DNA of 64,000 nt, from positions 248,001-312,000 of the forward strand of contig NZ_FMVC01000004.1 of assembly GCF_900101855.1 (NCBI RefSeq), in the 5' to 3' direction. The position numbers and the translations under genes are program-made. Shown in pieces: positions 48,101-59,159 of this stretch. Below the pieces are notes generated by a model. It was not told the origin of the DNA. It saw only the letters and a list, made by a program, of their open reading frames with translations, and searched no databases. This DNA comes from Flavobacterium anhuiense (lineage in GTDB: Bacteria; Bacteroidota; Bacteroidia; Flavobacteriales; Flavobacteriaceae). How positions within the stretch are numbered: the first letter of the stretch is position 1; each line of letters begins with the position of its first letter.

Positions 48101-48550
48101 CTAAAGAAAAAGATGCAGGTATTGGTTCTTTTCCAGATTGGAAAGCGGTTCTTTTAATCCGTTTTCAAGATTTGAGGTAATCAGTCCCAACACTTGTTTT
48201 AGATCGTTGAAATTATTTGGCTTCACAAAATAACAGAATGCACCAAGGTTGCCGGCAGCTTCCATATCATTTTTATGTGAAGAAGTAGAAATCATAATTA
48301 CCGGAATATCTTTATAACGCTCTTCCGATTTTAATCGTTTCAGACATTCCCATCCATTCATAATAGGCATATTTAAATCTAAAAAGACAACTTCAGGAGT
48401 TTTATCATGACTATTTAGCATTTTCAATGCTTGATCCCCATTTTCTGCACAATGACAAATAATACTTTCATCTATATCAGCCAACGCTTCGCAAAACATT
48501 TCTGCGTCGTCCCTGTCATCATCGGCTAATAAAATTATTTTCTTACTCAT
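48101..48550 (-). CDS. Single-domain response regulator (Rcp1-like)
   Basis: 149 residues, a receiver domain alone. The acidic pair ADDD (residues 9-12), phospho-acceptor Asp58 in VVFLDLNMP, the switch residue in VIMISTSS and the lysine of YFVKPNN are all present, so it should be phosphorylatable. It has no output domain and would act by protein contact, as Rcp1 does with phytochrome kinases. It begins two bases after the kinase gene and is almost certainly its partner. Confidence 0.92.
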   Translation of the reverse strand: MSKKIILLADDDRDDAEMFCEALADIDESIICHCAENGDQALKMLNSHDKTPEVVFLDLNMPIMNGWECLKRLKSEERYKDIPVIMISTSSHKNDMEAAGNLGAFCYFVKPNNFNDLKQVLGLITSNLENGLKEPLSNLEKNQYLHLFL

Positions 48551-48552
48551 GC

Positions 48553-51225
48553 TTAAATGTCTTTTTCTGTTTGTTCAAATGGCAACATAATTGTAAAAAC
48601 AGCTCCTTTATCGACAATTCCATTTGCTGTAATGCTGCCTCCGTGACGTTCCGCTATTTTTTTACAAAGCGACAACCCTAAGCCAGTTCCTTCATAACGG
48701 TCTTTAGAATTTAATCGGGTAAAAGTTTCAAAAATACGTCCCGTCTGATCGGGGTCAAATCCGATTCCGTTGTCTCGTACCGTAATTACAGCAATTCTTT
48801 TACCGTCTTCAAATTTTTCTTCTGTATTAATGGCAATCTGCGGCGGAACATTTTCTTTAGCAAATTTAATAGAATTGTTTATCAGATTATAAAACAATTG
48901 ATAAAGCAGCACAGAAGCTCCTTCAATAACAGGAAGTCCTTGATAATAAATATTTCCGCCTGTTCTTTGAAGTGAAATTTCCAGATCGGTTTCTATATTT
49001 TTGATGACTTCGTTAAGATCAACTATTGTTGCTTTCTGCGAGTCGGCATTGATTTTAGAATAGGCAAGTACACCATCAATCATAGTAAACATGCGATCTG
49101 CCGCTACATGGATTCTTTCAATATATCTCGTTGCCGATTCGTCGAGCTTATTTTCAAGATGGTCTTCCAAACGGCTTACAAATGTTTTTATTTTCCTAAC
49201 AGGCTCTTTTAAATCGTGAGAAGCGACATGAGCAAATTGCTGTAAATCATCGTTAGAACGCTGGAGTTCTTTGGTACGGTCCGCCACCAAAATTTCCAGC
49301 TTTTCGGTAATCGACTTCTGTTCATGAATATCGGTGCAGGTACCAAACCAATTGGTGATAACGCCTTCTTTATCTCTAATAGGAAGTGCTTTACTCAAAA
49401 ACCAACGGTATTCGCCTGTACTTCCATTTTTTAAACGAAATTCCATTTGGTAAGAAGACCCCGCTTGAACGCTTTGATACCAAGTTCTTAAAACATCATA
49501 AACATCATCGGGATGGAGCGCTGGAACCCAACTGGAATCACCAAATTCATATTCATTAAAACCGGTGTATTCATACCATCTGCTGTTGTAATAATCTATA
49601 AATCCGTCAGGACGAGCAGTCCAGATAATTTGAGGCACCAGATCGGCAAGCTGCCTAAATTTCTCTTCACTTTCTGCAATAACATTTTGAAGTTCTTTTT
49701 GTGAAGTAATATCACTCGCGGCGCCAAACCATTCTACGATTTTTTCTTTTTCATCTAATATCGGAACCACTCTAGACAAAACCCATCTTACAGAATCATC
49801 TTCTTTTATAATTCTGTGTTCCATTTCAAAAATGCTTTTCTCCACTATAGATTTAGAAATAAGATGAACTGCTTGTTCCAAATCGCCAGGATGTACAAAT
49901 TTATCCAGCCAATTGATACTTTGCCCTCCAGTTCCAGAAAGCCTTCCTCCTCCTTCAAGGCTATGCATTACCATCCAATCAGAATCCATTCGGTAAACCA
50001 GATCAGATGAAGCGTTGACCAAAGCTCGAAAACGGTTTTCACTTTTTTCCATTTTCTGGCGAGCTTCAACTTGTTCGGTAACATCAACCGCTACTTGAAT
50101 CATTCCTGTTATCTGATCTTCTTCAATTAATGGGCGATAGGTCAAGTTATAATAGTAGTTTTTTAATTCTCCCGTTCGATTGTGCGGTACAAGAACCTCG
50201 CTTTGGTCAAAAGGAATTCCTTCATTATAAACCTTTAAAACCTGCTCCCAAACATATTGCCCTTCAAGTTCCGGCAGCACATCAATCAATCGCATACCAA
50301 TAATTTCTTCACCACGGCCTATCATTTGCAGCATGTGTTTATTTATCTGCTCAATAACCAAGTCGTCTCCTCGTAGCACTAAAGTTGGGGCTGGTGTCTG
50401 ATGGATCATTTTGCGAAAACGGTTTTCACTCTGCTGCAATTTTTCTTCAGCTTGTTTGCTTTCCGTAATATCTCGTGTCGTTCCTGCTACAAGTTCCACT
50501 TTTCCGTCTTCATTAAAAACGGGAACAAAAATATAATCGTATATCCTTCTTCCTAATTCTGCATGCGGAAAAGAAACAGTTCCTCTAATGGATTTTTTTT
50601 CAGCAACTACAATGTCTATTTCTCTTTCGTGCATTTCGGCATGCCAATCTTCATATCCATTTTCTCGAAGGCCGCGCCCAATTGCATCCTCTGCCGATTT
50701 CCCCCACATTGTCAGTAAGGCTTTATTGGCATAAGTAAACTTATAATCGAGATCAAACACATAGACCAAATCGGGAGTCCCATTTATTATAGAGTTGTAA
50801 AGCCTTTTTTGTTTTTCCGCATCAATTAAAGCAGTATTCAGTTCGGTTTCGGCATATTTCTTTTCGGTAATATCCTCCATTGTCATTACCAATAAATCAT
50901 CTTGCATAACAACAGTAAATTTCAAGCACTGTTTTCCTCTTTCATCATTATGCCATTGCTCAAAATAGGCTGTAATTCCGGTTTCTGCGGTTTCAATACA
51001 CTTTTCGAGAATCGTGTTTCCTTCAATTTTAGAAAAAACTTTACTGAATCTCTTTCCCTTGTAGTCTTCGATATTGATCCAATTTATAAGGTAGTTATTT
51101 AGCAACAGCACTGAAAAATCTTCGATTGTATTTTTAGTGCTATGCAAAGGTTTTAAAACTGCAATACCATTTGGCGCAGCATTAAAAACAGTTTTAAAAA
51201 GGTCTAAATTATTTATTAACTCCAT
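48553..51225 (-). CDS. Multi-PAS sensor histidine kinase
   Basis: 890 residues, soluble (no membrane span). About five PAS/PAC modules run from residue 10 to 640 (e.g. LVYVFDLDYKFTYANKALLT, APTLVLRGDDLVIEQINKHM, IIWTARPDGFIDYYNSRWYE). The HisKA box ASHDLKEPVRKIKTF lies near residue 668 and the ATPase has LINNSIKFA (N), DNGIGFDP (G1) and YEGTGLGLSLCKKI (G2). It is a complete kinase and transcribed with the receiver gene behind it. No cofactor-binding Cys typical of phytochrome is seen; the stimulus is unknown. Confidence 0.93.
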   Translation of the reverse strand: MELINNLDLFKTVFNAAPNGIAVLKPLHSTKNTIEDFSVLLLNNYLINWINIEDYKGKRFSKVFSKIEGNTILEKCIETAETGITAYFEQWHNDERGKQCLKFTVVMQDDLLVMTMEDITEKKYAETELNTALIDAEKQKRLYNSIINGTPDLVYVFDLDYKFTYANKALLTMWGKSAEDAIGRGLRENGYEDWHAEMHEREIDIVVAEKKSIRGTVSFPHAELGRRIYDYIFVPVFNEDGKVELVAGTTRDITESKQAEEKLQQSENRFRKMIHQTPAPTLVLRGDDLVIEQINKHMLQMIGRGEEIIGMRLIDVLPELEGQYVWEQVLKVYNEGIPFDQSEVLVPHNRTGELKNYYYNLTYRPLIEEDQITGMIQVAVDVTEQVEARQKMEKSENRFRALVNASSDLVYRMDSDWMVMHSLEGGGRLSGTGGQSINWLDKFVHPGDLEQAVHLISKSIVEKSIFEMEHRIIKEDDSVRWVLSRVVPILDEKEKIVEWFGAASDITSQKELQNVIAESEEKFRQLADLVPQIIWTARPDGFIDYYNSRWYEYTGFNEYEFGDSSWVPALHPDDVYDVLRTWYQSVQAGSSYQMEFRLKNGSTGEYRWFLSKALPIRDKEGVITNWFGTCTDIHEQKSITEKLEILVADRTKELQRSNDDLQQFAHVASHDLKEPVRKIKTFVSRLEDHLENKLDESATRYIERIHVAADRMFTMIDGVLAYSKINADSQKATIVDLNEVIKNIETDLEISLQRTGGNIYYQGLPVIEGASVLLYQLFYNLINNSIKFAKENVPPQIAINTEEKFEDGKRIAVITVRDNGIGFDPDQTGRIFETFTRLNSKDRYEGTGLGLSLCKKIAERHGGSITANGIVDKGAVFTIMLPFEQTEKDI

Positions 51226-55049: not shown

Positions 55050-58000
55050 ATGAATATTGTGCATTTAAATAGAACTCAAAAAGCCGAATCTTTTTTTCCG
55101 ATTGTTGCCATTAGTTCAGCTTCATCAGAAATTGAAATTCTAAAAAAAGTAATTTCAGAATTTCCCGCAGATTCTAGAATGGCTTATCTCATTATGGAAG
55201 ATTTGTATTTTCCACAAACCGAAAATCTAGCATTCGAACTCGAATCGTATTCAGAAATGCCAGTTATAGAAATTGTCAGCTCAGTTGATCTTCACCCAAA
55301 TCACATTTATGTTATTCCAGCTAATAATTTTCTCGAAATCGAAAATGGTTCGCTTGTGCTTAAATCAAGAACAAGAAGCAGTAATTCTGCCAACTGCCTC
55401 GATTTCTTTTTTGATTCTCTTGCTAGCATTTATAAAAGTTATACCATTGGTCTTGTTATTTCTGGAAGCGCTGTAGATGGTTTTGCCGGACTTAAAAAAG
55501 TCAAAGAAATGGGCGGTACTTCTATTGCAATTCTGCACAAAAAGGGAGTTCCGAAAAACGATGACACTGGAAATTTTATAGATTATTTTAGTCCGCAAGA
55601 TCGAGTTTCAGACAAATTAAAAGAAATACAAAACAGTTATGTAGTCAATCACGCCTACCAAGACAATCAAAATAATAACAACGAAGAGGAAGAAAATCTA
55701 CTTAAAGAAATTACTGCTTTATTACAACTAAGAACAGGAACCAATTTTCAACATTATAAACATCAGACAATTCGAAGACGTATTGCAAAAAGAATGGTGG
55801 TTACACATCAGGAAAGCACTCAAAAATACTTGAATATTCTAAAAAACAGTACAGTAGAACAAGACGCTTTGTTTAATGATATTCTTATTCCTGTGACTTA
55901 CTTTTTTAGAGATGCTTCATTTTTCGATCATTTGTGCACAGCCATTTTTCCCTCTTTAATAGAAAATGCAAACAATGAGATTTTACGTATTTGGTCTGCG
56001 GGCTGCTCGACGGGAGAAGAAGCATATTCACTGGCAATTTGTCTGCACGAATATTTAGAGCAGAATAATAAGCATAATATAAAAATTCAAATTTTTGCCT
56101 CCGATTTATCTGATCATTGCATTGTCAAAGCGCGCTCGGGAGTATACACTTTGCAAGATGTCAAAAATATTAGCAGTGAAAGACTCGAAAAATATTTTAC
56201 AAAAAGAAACAATACATTTCATGTCAATAAAATTATTCAGGACATGTGTGTATTTGCTGTTCATGATTTAACAAAAGATGCCTCATTTTCTAAAATAAAT
56301 CTTATCTCCTGCCGCAATGTTTTAATCTACTTTGATACAGAATTACAAAATCAAGTGTTGACTTCTTTTCATTATTCTCTAAGAGATAACGGATATTTAT
56401 TTTTAGGAAAAGCAGAAACAGCCCATAATGTGCCCGATTTATTCGCCATAGTGGATAAACAAGAGAAAATCTATATTCGAAAAAATGAAACGAAACATCC
56501 CAAAACTATCCGTTTAGGCACAAACAGCAATAGAACAAAAAATGTTGCCTCAGAAACTGAAATAGATTATAAAAAAATTGCTTCTGACATTCTTCTTGAA
56601 AATTTTTCTCCTGCGGCCGTAATGATAAACGAACAGCTTGAAATTGTCTATTTTCACGGAGACACAAGTCCGTTTTTACAGCCAGCATCTGGAAAACCAA
56701 GTTTCAACATCTTAAATATGGTTCGAGAAGAGATTAGTCTGGAACTTAGAAATGCCATTTTAAAAGCAAGAAACGAGAAAAAAAACTTCTCAAACGGCTA
56801 CATTGCTGTAAAAAAACAATCTTTTTTAACTTCTTTCGAAGTTATTTTTCTTCCTTCAAATCTTGATTTGCTGTTGATTGTGTTTTGCAAAAAAACACTT
56901 TCGCATTCAGAACTCATTACCAATGCTGAAAGTCCTTCGGACGAATTTGAAAAAGAATTGCATCAGCTTCGAGGCGATTTTAAAAGAGTTACCGAAGAAC
57001 AGCAGATTTATTTTGAAGAATTGCAGAATACCAACGTAGAATTATTGGCTAATACTGAAGAATTACAGCTTATAAACGAAAAACTTACGGCTTCTGCTGA
57101 AGAATTGCAGTCAAATAACAAGGAGCTTTCTTTTTTAAATGAAGAATTACAGAACCGTAGGGATGAACTTGCTCTTATGCGAAACTTTTACGAATCTATT
57201 GTAAAAACAATCCGAGAGCCAATACTTATAATTGATCGAAACGCTGCTATAAAAAGCGCCAATACTTCATTTTACAATTATTTTAAAACCATTCAGGAAG
57301 AAACAGAAGGAAATTCAATTTTTGAAATTGGCTCTTGCCATTGGAATATTCCAGAATTCAAAGAATCTGTTTTGAAGAAAGTAAATCAGGGAGAAACGGT
57401 AGAAAATTTTAAAATCAGTTTTATTCTTGAAAACGGAATAAAAAAAACAATGATTTTAAATGCCACTCCCATTATTCATTCTGTTCCCGAAGGAATGATT
57501 TTAATTGCACTTGAAGATATTACAGAGTTAGAGTTTAGCAATGAATCTATTAAAAATAAAAATCTTGAATTAAAAAGCTACAGTGAACATCTAGAATCAT
57601 TTACCAATGCAGCGAGCCATAATTTGCTTGAACCTGGACGAAAAATCTATATGTTTGGAAAAAAGGTTTTAGACTCCGAAAAGTTATTGTCGGAATCAGG
57701 AAAACACAATTTGCATCGTCTATTGAATACAGCTGTAAATCTGAATCAGCTTATTGAAGATTTAATTGATTATTCTAAAGTAAATTTTAGCGAAAAATCT
57801 TTCAAGAAGACTGATCTTAATGTTGTAATAAAAAAAGTTATGATCGAACTAAAAGTCATGATCCAAGAGCACAAAGCAGAAATTATTTCCGATTTGCTTC
57901 CTGTTCTTTATAGTATTCCTTCCCAGATGAAACAGCTTTTTTCTCAATTAATAATCAATTCTATTAAATATGCTAAGAAAGGTGTAAACCCCCAGATTAA

Positions 58001-58286
58001 GATAAGTGCAGTACAGCCATCTCCAGAGGAAATTAAACATGTAAATGCCAATTCAAGCCGAAATTATACTAAAATCATGATTAAAGATAATGGAATGGGG
58101 TTTACGAAAGATTTTGAAAATTTAATTTTTGATCCTTTCTATAAGCTTCATAGCAACGAAGACCATTATGGTAGCGGATTGGGTTTGACGATCGTGCATA
58201 AGATCGTTTCCAATCATAACGGTTTCATTCAAGTTTCAAGCAAACCAGAAAAAGGAACTATTATTTGTATTTATCTTCCTGTATAA
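55050..58286 (+). CDS. CheB/CheR/PAS/histidine-kinase fusion protein
   Basis: 1078 residues. Residues 15-195 resemble a CheB methylesterase domain but the catalytic residues appear lost: VAISSASSE has Ala24 where Ser is expected, and LIMEDLYFP has Asp51 where His is expected; only Asp143 (ISGSAVDGFAG) remains. Residues 210-490 are a CheR methyltransferase (QTIRRRIAKRM, IWSAGCSTGEEAYSLAICLH, ISCRNVLIYFD). A coiled coil follows (about 640-715, EELQ repeats), then a PAS domain, and a kinase core: ASHNLLEPGRK (H box near 860), LIINSIKYA, DNGMGF and YGSGLGLTIVHK. It is a soluble, complete kinase with a CheB-like but probably inert front. It is monocistronic, beside two small leftward genes. Confidence 0.88.
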   Translation: MNIVHLNRTQKAESFFPIVAISSASSEIEILKKVISEFPADSRMAYLIMEDLYFPQTENLAFELESYSEMPVIEIVSSVDLHPNHIYVIPANNFLEIENGSLVLKSRTRSSNSANCLDFFFDSLASIYKSYTIGLVISGSAVDGFAGLKKVKEMGGTSIAILHKKGVPKNDDTGNFIDYFSPQDRVSDKLKEIQNSYVVNHAYQDNQNNNNEEEENLLKEITALLQLRTGTNFQHYKHQTIRRRIAKRMVVTHQESTQKYLNILKNSTVEQDALFNDILIPVTYFFRDASFFDHLCTAIFPSLIENANNEILRIWSAGCSTGEEAYSLAICLHEYLEQNNKHNIKIQIFASDLSDHCIVKARSGVYTLQDVKNISSERLEKYFTKRNNTFHVNKIIQDMCVFAVHDLTKDASFSKINLISCRNVLIYFDTELQNQVLTSFHYSLRDNGYLFLGKAETAHNVPDLFAIVDKQEKIYIRKNETKHPKTIRLGTNSNRTKNVASETEIDYKKIASDILLENFSPAAVMINEQLEIVYFHGDTSPFLQPASGKPSFNILNMVREEISLELRNAILKARNEKKNFSNGYIAVKKQSFLTSFEVIFLPSNLDLLLIVFCKKTLSHSELITNAESPSDEFEKELHQLRGDFKRVTEEQQIYFEELQNTNVELLANTEELQLINEKLTASAEELQSNNKELSFLNEELQNRRDELALMRNFYESIVKTIREPILIIDRNAAIKSANTSFYNYFKTIQEETEGNSIFEIGSCHWNIPEFKESVLKKVNQGETVENFKISFILENGIKKTMILNATPIIHSVPEGMILIALEDITELEFSNESIKNKNLELKSYSEHLESFTNAASHNLLEPGRKIYMFGKKVLDSEKLLSESGKHNLHRLLNTAVNLNQLIEDLIDYSKVNFSEKSFKKTDLNVVIKKVMIELKVMIQEHKAEIISDLLPVLYSIPSQMKQLFSQLIINSIKYAKKGVNPQIKISAVQPSPEEIKHVNANSSRNYTKIMIKDNGMGFTKDFENLIFDPFYKLHSNEDHYGSGLGLTIVHKIVSNHNGFIQVSSKPEKGTIICIYLPV

Positions 58287-58712: not shown

Positions 58713-59159
58713 TTATAGTGTTTTTATTTTGTTTCGCCATTTTGATTTGTATTGTTCGGCAGAATGTTTCAGTGACCAGTATTCTATTATGGTCTGTATA
58801 GTTTCTTTAAATTTTTCATCGCTGTAAGGCGTTATAAAATAACTCTTTGCAGGTATTGCATAAGTATCTATGACAAAAGAACTGGTAAACAAAATAGAAT
58901 AAAAAAGGCAAGGACATTTCATCTTCCTTAATATTGTTTTTTTATAACTGGATTGTCTGTCATCTTCATTGAATTGCAATACATTGGAAAATAACAAAAA
59001 AGGTATATTTTTTTGAGCAGCCATATACAACATAGCCTCAGCAAAGGTGTTGAAACAAAGCAGAGTATTCCTGAGTTCCAAATCTGAAATAATTTCCTGA
59101 AACAAAAGACGATTTTCTTTGTTTTCTTCTATTACAATTATACTTCCTTTTATATTCAT
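58713..59159 (-). CDS. Response-regulator-like protein without phospho-acceptor
   Basis: 148 residues with the receiver-type layout: GSIIVIEENKENRLLFQEII at the start (acidic pair EE at 11-12 kept) and alternating strands and helices. Where the phospho-acceptor Asp should stand (strand 3, IPFLLFSNVLQF) there is Ser/Asn, and the conserved Lys before the last strand (KPY/KPF) is replaced in YFITPYS. It is therefore predicted not to be phosphorylated and may act by binding alone. The C-terminus is basic. The CheB/CheR kinase lies close by, divergent in orientation. Confidence 0.6.
   Translation of the reverse strand: MNIKGSIIVIEENKENRLLFQEIISDLELRNTLLCFNTFAEAMLYMAAQKNIPFLLFSNVLQFNEDDRQSSYKKTILRKMKCPCLFYSILFTSSFVIDTYAIPAKSYFITPYSDEKFKETIQTIIEYWSLKHSAEQYKSKWRNKIKTL

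Follow-up and report, generated by a model that had tools for sequence, protein, structure and literature searches.

What can a protein do that joins the chemotaxis enzymes CheB and CheR to a PAS-bearing histidine kinase, when its genome has no detected chemoreceptor and when catalytic residues are missing from both its esterase and its kinase parts? This question is raised by a gene of Flavobacterium anhuiense (assembly GCF_900101855.1), carried at positions 55050-58286 (+) of the window, the 64,000-nucleotide stretch of contig NZ_FMVC01000004.1 (positions 248,001 to 312,000) that we analysed and to which the coordinates given below refer. Its open reading frame (ORF) encodes a protein of 1078 residues. 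Our preferred answer, to which we give even weight for and against, is that this fusion is a pseudoenzyme in its CheB and kinase parts and that it regulates the methylation of a target other than a chemoreceptor through CheR, its only complete active site.

ORF calling, Pfam and a full-length model give the domain order CheB, CheR, PAS, coil, PAS, DHp and HATPase, with catalytic residues missing from CheB and DHp. Pfam delimits CheB (residues 19-160), CheR_N (218-266), CheR (282-472), PAS (713-824) and HATPase (958-1077), while HisKA scores only below the cut-off and weak coiled-coil matches were set aside. The full-length predicted structure (mean predicted local distance difference test, pLDDT, 79.7; predicted template modelling score, pTM, 0.47) adds a fold at about residues 507-616 (56568-56897, +), unnamed by Pfam, whose predicted secondary structure suggests a further PAS-like domain, and a long helix at residues 643-720. 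The PAS domain recognised by Pfam extends over residues 713-826 (57186-57527, +).

The CheB-fold domain (residues 14-203; 55089-55658, +; Pfam, alignment and model) scores 81.6 bits against PF01339, for a cut-off of 24. Its fold is kept, since the predicted model of residues 1-205 (mean pLDDT 87.4) matches the solved CheB structures 3sft (Z 21.2, root-mean-square deviation 2.7 over 176 residues, with Foldseek in agreement) and 1chd (Z 20.4); matches outside CheB were set aside. An earlier sequence-only reading of this DNA, which had proposed such a structural comparison, placed Ala24, Asp51 and Asp143 at the Ser-His-Asp triad, and alignment to the solved chains 3sft, 6ymz and 1chd bears it out in giving a broken triad on a matched fold. 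Ala24 (55119-55121, +) falls on the nucleophile Ser of GASTGG and Asp51 (55200-55202, +) on the catalytic His of QHM, as both also do against the other fusions; Asp143 (55476-55478, +), on the Asp of the DG loop, is the triad residue still present. We take these positions to be those of Ser164, His190 and Asp286 of Salmonella CheB.

This decay is, from the aligned residues, a trait of a whole lineage and not of a single odd gene. From family, genus and named-genome searches, of which not every match was fetched, we obtained 134 ORFs (118 after removal of duplicates) and aligned 70 fusion ORFs, namely the 60 with more than 400 bits and ten hand-chosen rows from nine more loci, one of which (L133) supplies two ORFs as halves of one gene. 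On the resulting 69-row tree, built without CheB and the H box by a quick search with support from the SH-aLRT (Shimodaira-Hasegawa-like approximate likelihood-ratio test) only, the window fusion and 23 other members group with the fast-evolving pair L007/L133 in a single 26-row clade (support 100), hereafter the dead clade. Counts of clade members refer to the 24 sequences that include the window and exclude L007 and L133, with the kinase part readable in 23. The genus search found a match above 560 bits in 14 of 398 genomes (that of the window included), all of them in the dead clade; the named-genome search supplied the remaining ten members, which include those of F. tistrianum, F. defluvii, F. 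phragmitis and F. reichenbachii. Of the relatives with a name, Flavobacterium sp. HBTb2-11-1 is the nearest (L148, 94% identity). The full-length frame is uninterrupted in 23 of the 24 members, L187 being truncated.

Across these members, His never occupies position 51 (Asn 14, Asp 8, Arg 1, Thr 1), the loop glycines at 26 and 27 are gone in 24/24, and Ser24 is retained in five, while Asp143 is present in all; position 50, mostly Gln in intact fusions, is Glu in 23. The 25 dead-clade alignment rows concur (His 0/25, both loop Gly 0/25, Ser 5/25). The sequence-only reading had named Ser22, Ser23 or Ser25, with another His, as residues that might complete the triad, and such a combination was looked for in the 24-member alignment and not seen: no Ser is invariant at positions 22-26 (22 members have Ser or Thr at position 23), no column within residues 14-200 exceeds 58% His, and column 201, with 83% His, lies in the tail beyond the CheB domain. 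At the level of sequence, the clade alignment thus speaks against a CheB still working with substitute residues, and the domain is read as catalytically dead with its fold retained. Its Pfam score is 82-90 bits in four dead-clade proteins versus 142-181 in three paralogues with a His-Asp kinase pair, and CheB Ser and His are both kept in 36 of the other 46 aligned ORFs, the kinase His in 35.

Independent losses of the acceptor His or of CheB triad residues were also observed in fusions outside the clade (L077, L195, L199, L200, L201, L097, L092 and L102), L102 having a dead CheB beside an intact kinase pair; L165 and L166 keep the CheB Ser and His and have Glu for the triad Asp.

In the kinase part, the DHp motif reads ASHNLLEP, versus ASHDLQEP in paralogues with a complete pair. 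The phospho-acceptor His857 is kept and the acid that should follow it (H+1) is replaced by Asn858 (57618-57623, +, by alignment). The acceptor His is absent from 18 of the 23 readable members (Glu 7, His 5, Asn 4, Asp 4, Gln 1, Ser 1, Gly 1), H+1 is Asn in 13, Ser in 5, His in 4 and Glu in 1, and no dead-clade row combines His with a following acid. HisKA scores 17-24 bits in four dead-clade proteins, under the cut-off of 26.9, versus 30-35 in three His-Asp paralogues. For comparison, 722 of 76,471 HisKA domains lack the His (PMC12632262), and in four tested HisKA kinases the H+1 acid is required for autophosphorylation and not for phosphatase activity (PMC3510030). The window kinase is probably inactive, because H+1 is Asn, because the His is lost in most of its clade and because the adjacent receiver has no phospho-Asp. 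The earlier description of the kinase core as intact therefore holds for His857 and for the N, G1 and G2 boxes of the HATPase domain (57789-58283, +; Pfam and alignment) and fails for the H+1 acid.

This adjacent receiver (58713-59159, -) is an Rcp1-type single-domain protein with Asn59 (58983-58985, -) at the phospho-Asp and Thr110 at the Lys position, a pseudo-receiver according to alignment, profile searches and tree. It has no Pfam match above cut-off; its family aligns with Asp-bearing receivers at 99.7% probability (hhalign), and a PDB search with its profile recovers RcpB, Rcp1 and RcpA, with 1k66 as the top match (E 5e-7). Its subfamily makes up 24 rows (support 95) of a 42-row receiver tree. 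Within it, a 13-row branch (support 100) comes entirely from dead-lineage genomes, including two Asn forms from the window's genome, and has Asn in 12/12 readable rows and a stop at the site in a remnant from genome G223. The 11 sister rows keep Asp, as do 18 more distant ones. Eight of these sisters adjoin a fusion outside the dead clade; in one of these fusions, L077, Tyr replaces the kinase His, and in another, L082, Gln replaces the CheB His. The other three (L212-L214) share a contig with an outside-clade fusion at least 20 kb off. In genome G127, a dead fusion coexists with a fusion whose residues are complete, and the sole receiver at E ≤ 1e-10 has Asp and adjoins the complete one; among matches with a locus, only more distant receivers were seen in G162, G237, G486 and G396, and none at E ≤ 1e-10 in G469. 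The receiver is conserved: between the window's copy and that of L149, the ratio of nonsynonymous to synonymous rates (dN/dS) is 0.04; three further dead-lineage pairs give 0.14-0.16, another is saturated, and the copies of the window and L069 differ by no amino acid (dS 0.012). Adjacency and shared lineage make this receiver the likely partner of the fusion.

Two other receivers were observed near dead fusions. In G223 (C6:132280-132558, L222), the remnant has internal stops, one of them at the phospho-Asp position, and seems to be decaying while the fusion frame stays open. In the window's genome, a second Asp-less receiver (L205:1474-1905) lies about 8 kb from a second fusion.

The main rival to a methyltransferase output starts from the same kinase residues: its half of the protein would be a dedicated receiver phosphatase like DrBphP, acting on another Rcp-type receiver, for instance the one at 48101-48550 (-), which has its Asp (FLDLNMP) and lies beside a PAS histidine kinase (48553-51225, -; SHDLKEP), the two being located 4 kb upstream of the fusion as possible partners in trans. 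H+4 is Glu in 21 of 23 members, including Glu861 of the window protein (57630-57632, +), and the H+7 Arg is retained in 21 of 23, the window protein among them, whereas 18 of the 23 have lost the His. The ATP-binding residues of the N, G1 and G2 boxes are kept in 25/25 dead-clade rows, L007 and L133 included. DrBphP itself has His at H+1 and no kinase activity, and its phosphatase needs ATP, the H+4 Glu and partly the H+7 Arg (PMC8292422); H+1 mutants of the four tested HisKA kinases likewise retain phosphatase activity (PMC3510030). However, H+4 is Asp in 2/23 members, a change that abolished the phosphatase of DrBphP (PMC8292422), the adjacent receiver offers no phospho-Asp, a review holds phosphatase activity to be unlikely as a general role of pseudo-histidine kinases (PMC12632262), and DivL, a kinase that has likewise been repurposed, does not act as a phosphatase (PMC4211667). 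We regard this explanation as unlikely, though the strongest of the alternatives, and it could hold alongside methylation by CheR.

A less probable alternative, for which we see a slim chance, is that the fusion heterodimerises with a sibling kinase or acts as a decoy for its receiver. A His-Asp fusion adjoins the dead one in 6 of the 24 loci (L070, L073, L075, L152, L155 and L187), and there is a precedent in the ChrS pseudokinase, which arose by CA-domain mutation and forms heterodimers with HrrS (PMC9491836). As a general explanation, recruitment of a sibling was nevertheless set aside: the tandem pair exists in just these six loci, the window's genome (G000) contains, besides this fusion, just one other, which has decayed further, and G162 and G223 have a single fusion each at E ≤ 1e-90. 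Another search gave three matches each in the latter two genomes, with the fusion and a standalone CheR among the matches listed. In the six tandem loci, the CheB of the His-Asp kinase fusion was itself seen to be partly decayed.

The CheR part stands apart from these losses. In the region of CheR_N and CheR (residues 218-472; 55701-56465, +; Pfam, alignment and model), the motifs FFRD, GCSTGEE, SD and NVLIYF are intact, as the sequence-only reading had stated; the domain scores 190.7 bits against PF01739 and its model matches the CheR structure with S-adenosylhomocysteine, 5ftw (Z 27.8). Among dead-clade rows, Arg287 and Tyr427 are each kept in 24/26, the exceptions being L007 and L133, and Asp352 in 26/26, and CheR scores of 187-195 bits in four dead-clade proteins are not below the 179-192 of three His-Asp paralogues. 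The best reading of these residues is that CheR would be the one complete active site left in the fusion. A CheR-like domain that binds S-adenosylmethionine (SAM) as a sensor without catalytic residues is on record in CheWS of Treponema denticola (PMC10653840), and this CheR might likewise serve only as a SAM sensor; the retention of Arg287 and Tyr427 throughout the 24 clade members, where CheWS lacks the catalytic residues, makes this very improbable.

For a catalytic CheR, a target outside chemotaxis is plausible. The remark that the window has no chemoreceptor or flagellar gene extends to the whole genome, in which no chemoreceptor of family PF00015 was found at E ≤ 1, and no CheW (PF01584), CheA-dimer (PF02895) or flagellin at E ≤ 0.01. 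Methyl-accepting chemotaxis proteins (MCP, PF00015) and CheW were not found in any of the 14 dead-clade genomes either at E ≤ 0.01, while each of these searches was positive in control genomes, the MCP, CheW and CheA-dimer searches in 7 or 8 of 14 and the whole set, flagellin included, in between 4 and 9 of 14.

Between CheR and PAS, the protein carries a coiled coil (residues 643-712; 56976-57185, +; alignment and model) of about seven EEL heptads, reminiscent of the methylation helix of chemoreceptors, and this coil is a possible substrate of CheR in cis. By eye, some of its EE pairs are missing in the dead-clade alignment and others stay, which speaks neither for nor against such a role.

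All domains of the fusion are under purifying selection. In seven of eight dead-clade pairs, the dN/dS of CheB is 0.07-0.23, where six pairs drawn from other fusions give 0.05-0.14; constraint on the dead CheB is thus somewhat looser and still far from neutrality. The eighth pair (L163/L186) is uninformative, its CheB dS of 0.01 giving a ratio of 1.73. In the same seven pairs, the other domains are below 0.25 where computable, the DHp of the window versus L149 being saturated. These are simple Nei-Gojobori estimates from pairs that share members and in which some dS exceed 1. Selection thus preserves the domain, as expected of a module for binding or regulation, the role that the sequence-only reading had suggested for the dead CheB. 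That the gene is merely decaying and functionless, as could be argued from eight changes at the acceptor-His position on the 69-row tree, from the further motif losses of L007 on the long branch (1.31) that it shares with its G209 counterpart L133, split into two ORFs, and from the G223 receiver remnant with stop codons, is the least probable explanation and a very remote one, given the full-length frames, the low dN/dS of every computable domain in seven of the eight pairs and the ATP-binding boxes kept in each of the 25 dead-clade rows.

We return to the reading of the fusion as a regulated methyltransferase. The losses described above suggest, as far as residues can tell, a signalling protein that has ceased to operate by passing on phosphate. 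Its PAS domains and the binding of ATP would provide the sensing, and the folds of CheB and DHp would offer surfaces for docking or regulation; the Asp-less receiver might bind to the DHp face with no phosphate involved. What is regulated would be the methylation by CheR of a non-chemoreceptor target in a stress-response setting, making the protein a PAS- and ATP-gated methyltransferase hub. A bolder version, which we think distinctly doubtful, is that a two-component pair has abandoned phosphate altogether: CheB catalysis, autophosphorylation and the receiver phospho-Asp would have been lost at the base of the lineage, with the ATP site, the folds and CheR kept, docking would be phosphate-free, and methylation, possibly of the protein's own EEL coil, would be the sole chemistry left.

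The gene neighbourhoods bear on the putative stress-response setting. In fetched dead-clade stretches of 11-15 kb, a long-form catalase occurs in 16/24 and a DUF892 gene in 19/24. The catalase also occurs in 3 of 39 stretches around other non-tandem fusions (L189, L197 and L102) and was rejected as an exclusive marker of the dead clade. The window fusion is preceded by a Rieske/flavin adenine dinucleotide (FAD) oxidoreductase and a short-chain dehydrogenase. The second fusion of the same genome (L007:7027-10296, contig C4) combines a dead CheB with broken CheR motifs and has Asp in place of the acceptor His; genes for a short-chain dehydrogenase/reductase and a DUF892-type protein lie in its vicinity. 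Only one CheB of this genome retains the whole Ser-His-Asp set; it is a standalone protein (L008:6783-8167, contig C4), and its gene was seen to adjoin those of a standalone CheR, of a receiver and of a hybrid kinase with several receivers. Stressosome-type genes were observed a few genes upstream of some dead fusions (RsbRD/STAS in L150 and a SpoIIE-phosphatase-like gene in L153 by Pfam; L161 by similarity).

Several observations weigh against the reading of a regulated methyltransferase. Neither catalase nor DUF892 gene lies beside the window's fusion, L148 or L149, and weak kinase activity is possible, because the window protein still has His857. A tree-wide coupling of CheB loss with kinase loss was not supported by an independent-pairs test on the 69-row tree: over five independent pairs, the kinase differs on average the same way in 0.8 and the opposite way in 1.0. 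The clade being one lineage, the joint loss of CheB and kinase is a single event at its base, and the receiver Asn is, on the aligned rows, a single branch too. Moreover, six dead-lineage genomes combine an Asn receiver with a tandem pair whose other fusion keeps His-Asp, so the loss of the receiver Asp is not tied to a missing kinase motif. CheR is not always spared either: its residues are lost in 5/69 tree rows, namely L091 (a truncated ORF), L007, L092, L097 and L133. In L007, L092 and L097, neither the CheB triad nor the kinase pair survives, and L133 is without the kinase pair; in L007, Pfam gives 141 bits to CheR and 69 to CheB, with no HisKA row.

In the parts of the open-licence PubMed Central (PMC) literature that were covered, we found no account of the function of CheB-CheR-kinase fusions, and in the same literature nothing on a catalytically inactive CheB, which is weak evidence of absence because only open-licence PMC was searched. 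The passages of one study that count cheBR fusions in Geobacter do not describe their function (PMC8396549), and a recent review calls the mechanisms of bacterial pseudo-receivers a mystery (PMC12632262). CheB-CheR-kinase fusions are here present in genomes without a detected chemoreceptor, and a lineage in which the chemistry of esterase and kinase is gone and CheR and the ATP site persist reveals which activity is least easily lost. It directs attention to CheR and to the phosphate-free use of kinase and receiver folds, with a candidate pseudo-receiver partner encoded next door and changes in both proteins at the base of one lineage.

The closest known relatives are the Flavobacterium paralogues (e.g. 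L079, L084), which share the domain order of the window fusion at about 50% identity over the full length, and some of which likewise adjoin a receiver of the same subfamily. Unlike these paralogues (CheB Ser and His in 36/46, kinase His in 35/46), the dead clade has no member with the CheB His or with the His-acid pair. CheWS of T. denticola is similar in using a CheR-type domain outside receptor methylation (PMC10653840). It lacks the CheR catalytic residues and works in chemotaxis arrays, whereas the window fusion keeps the residues and array proteins were not found in its genome. DrBphP of Deinococcus radiodurans shares the missing H+1 acid, the H+4 Glu, the H+7 Arg and the ATP site (PMC8292422). 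It differs in sensing light by a phytochrome and in acting on an Asp receiver, while the present protein is fused to CheB and CheR and has an Asp-less neighbour. DivL is not known to have a CheB or CheR part. This Caulobacter protein resembles the window fusion in its PAS domains and in a kinase-like fold without kinase activity, and departs from it in having Tyr at the acceptor, in binding ATP weakly and in sensing a phosphorylated receiver (PMC4211667). Finally, the neighbouring gene is comparable to aspartate-less receivers and pseudo-receivers, in which the phospho-Asp is replaced and receiver homology retained (PMC12632262); unlike in these, the loss of Asp here accompanies the loss of kinase residues in a kinase-like protein encoded next door.

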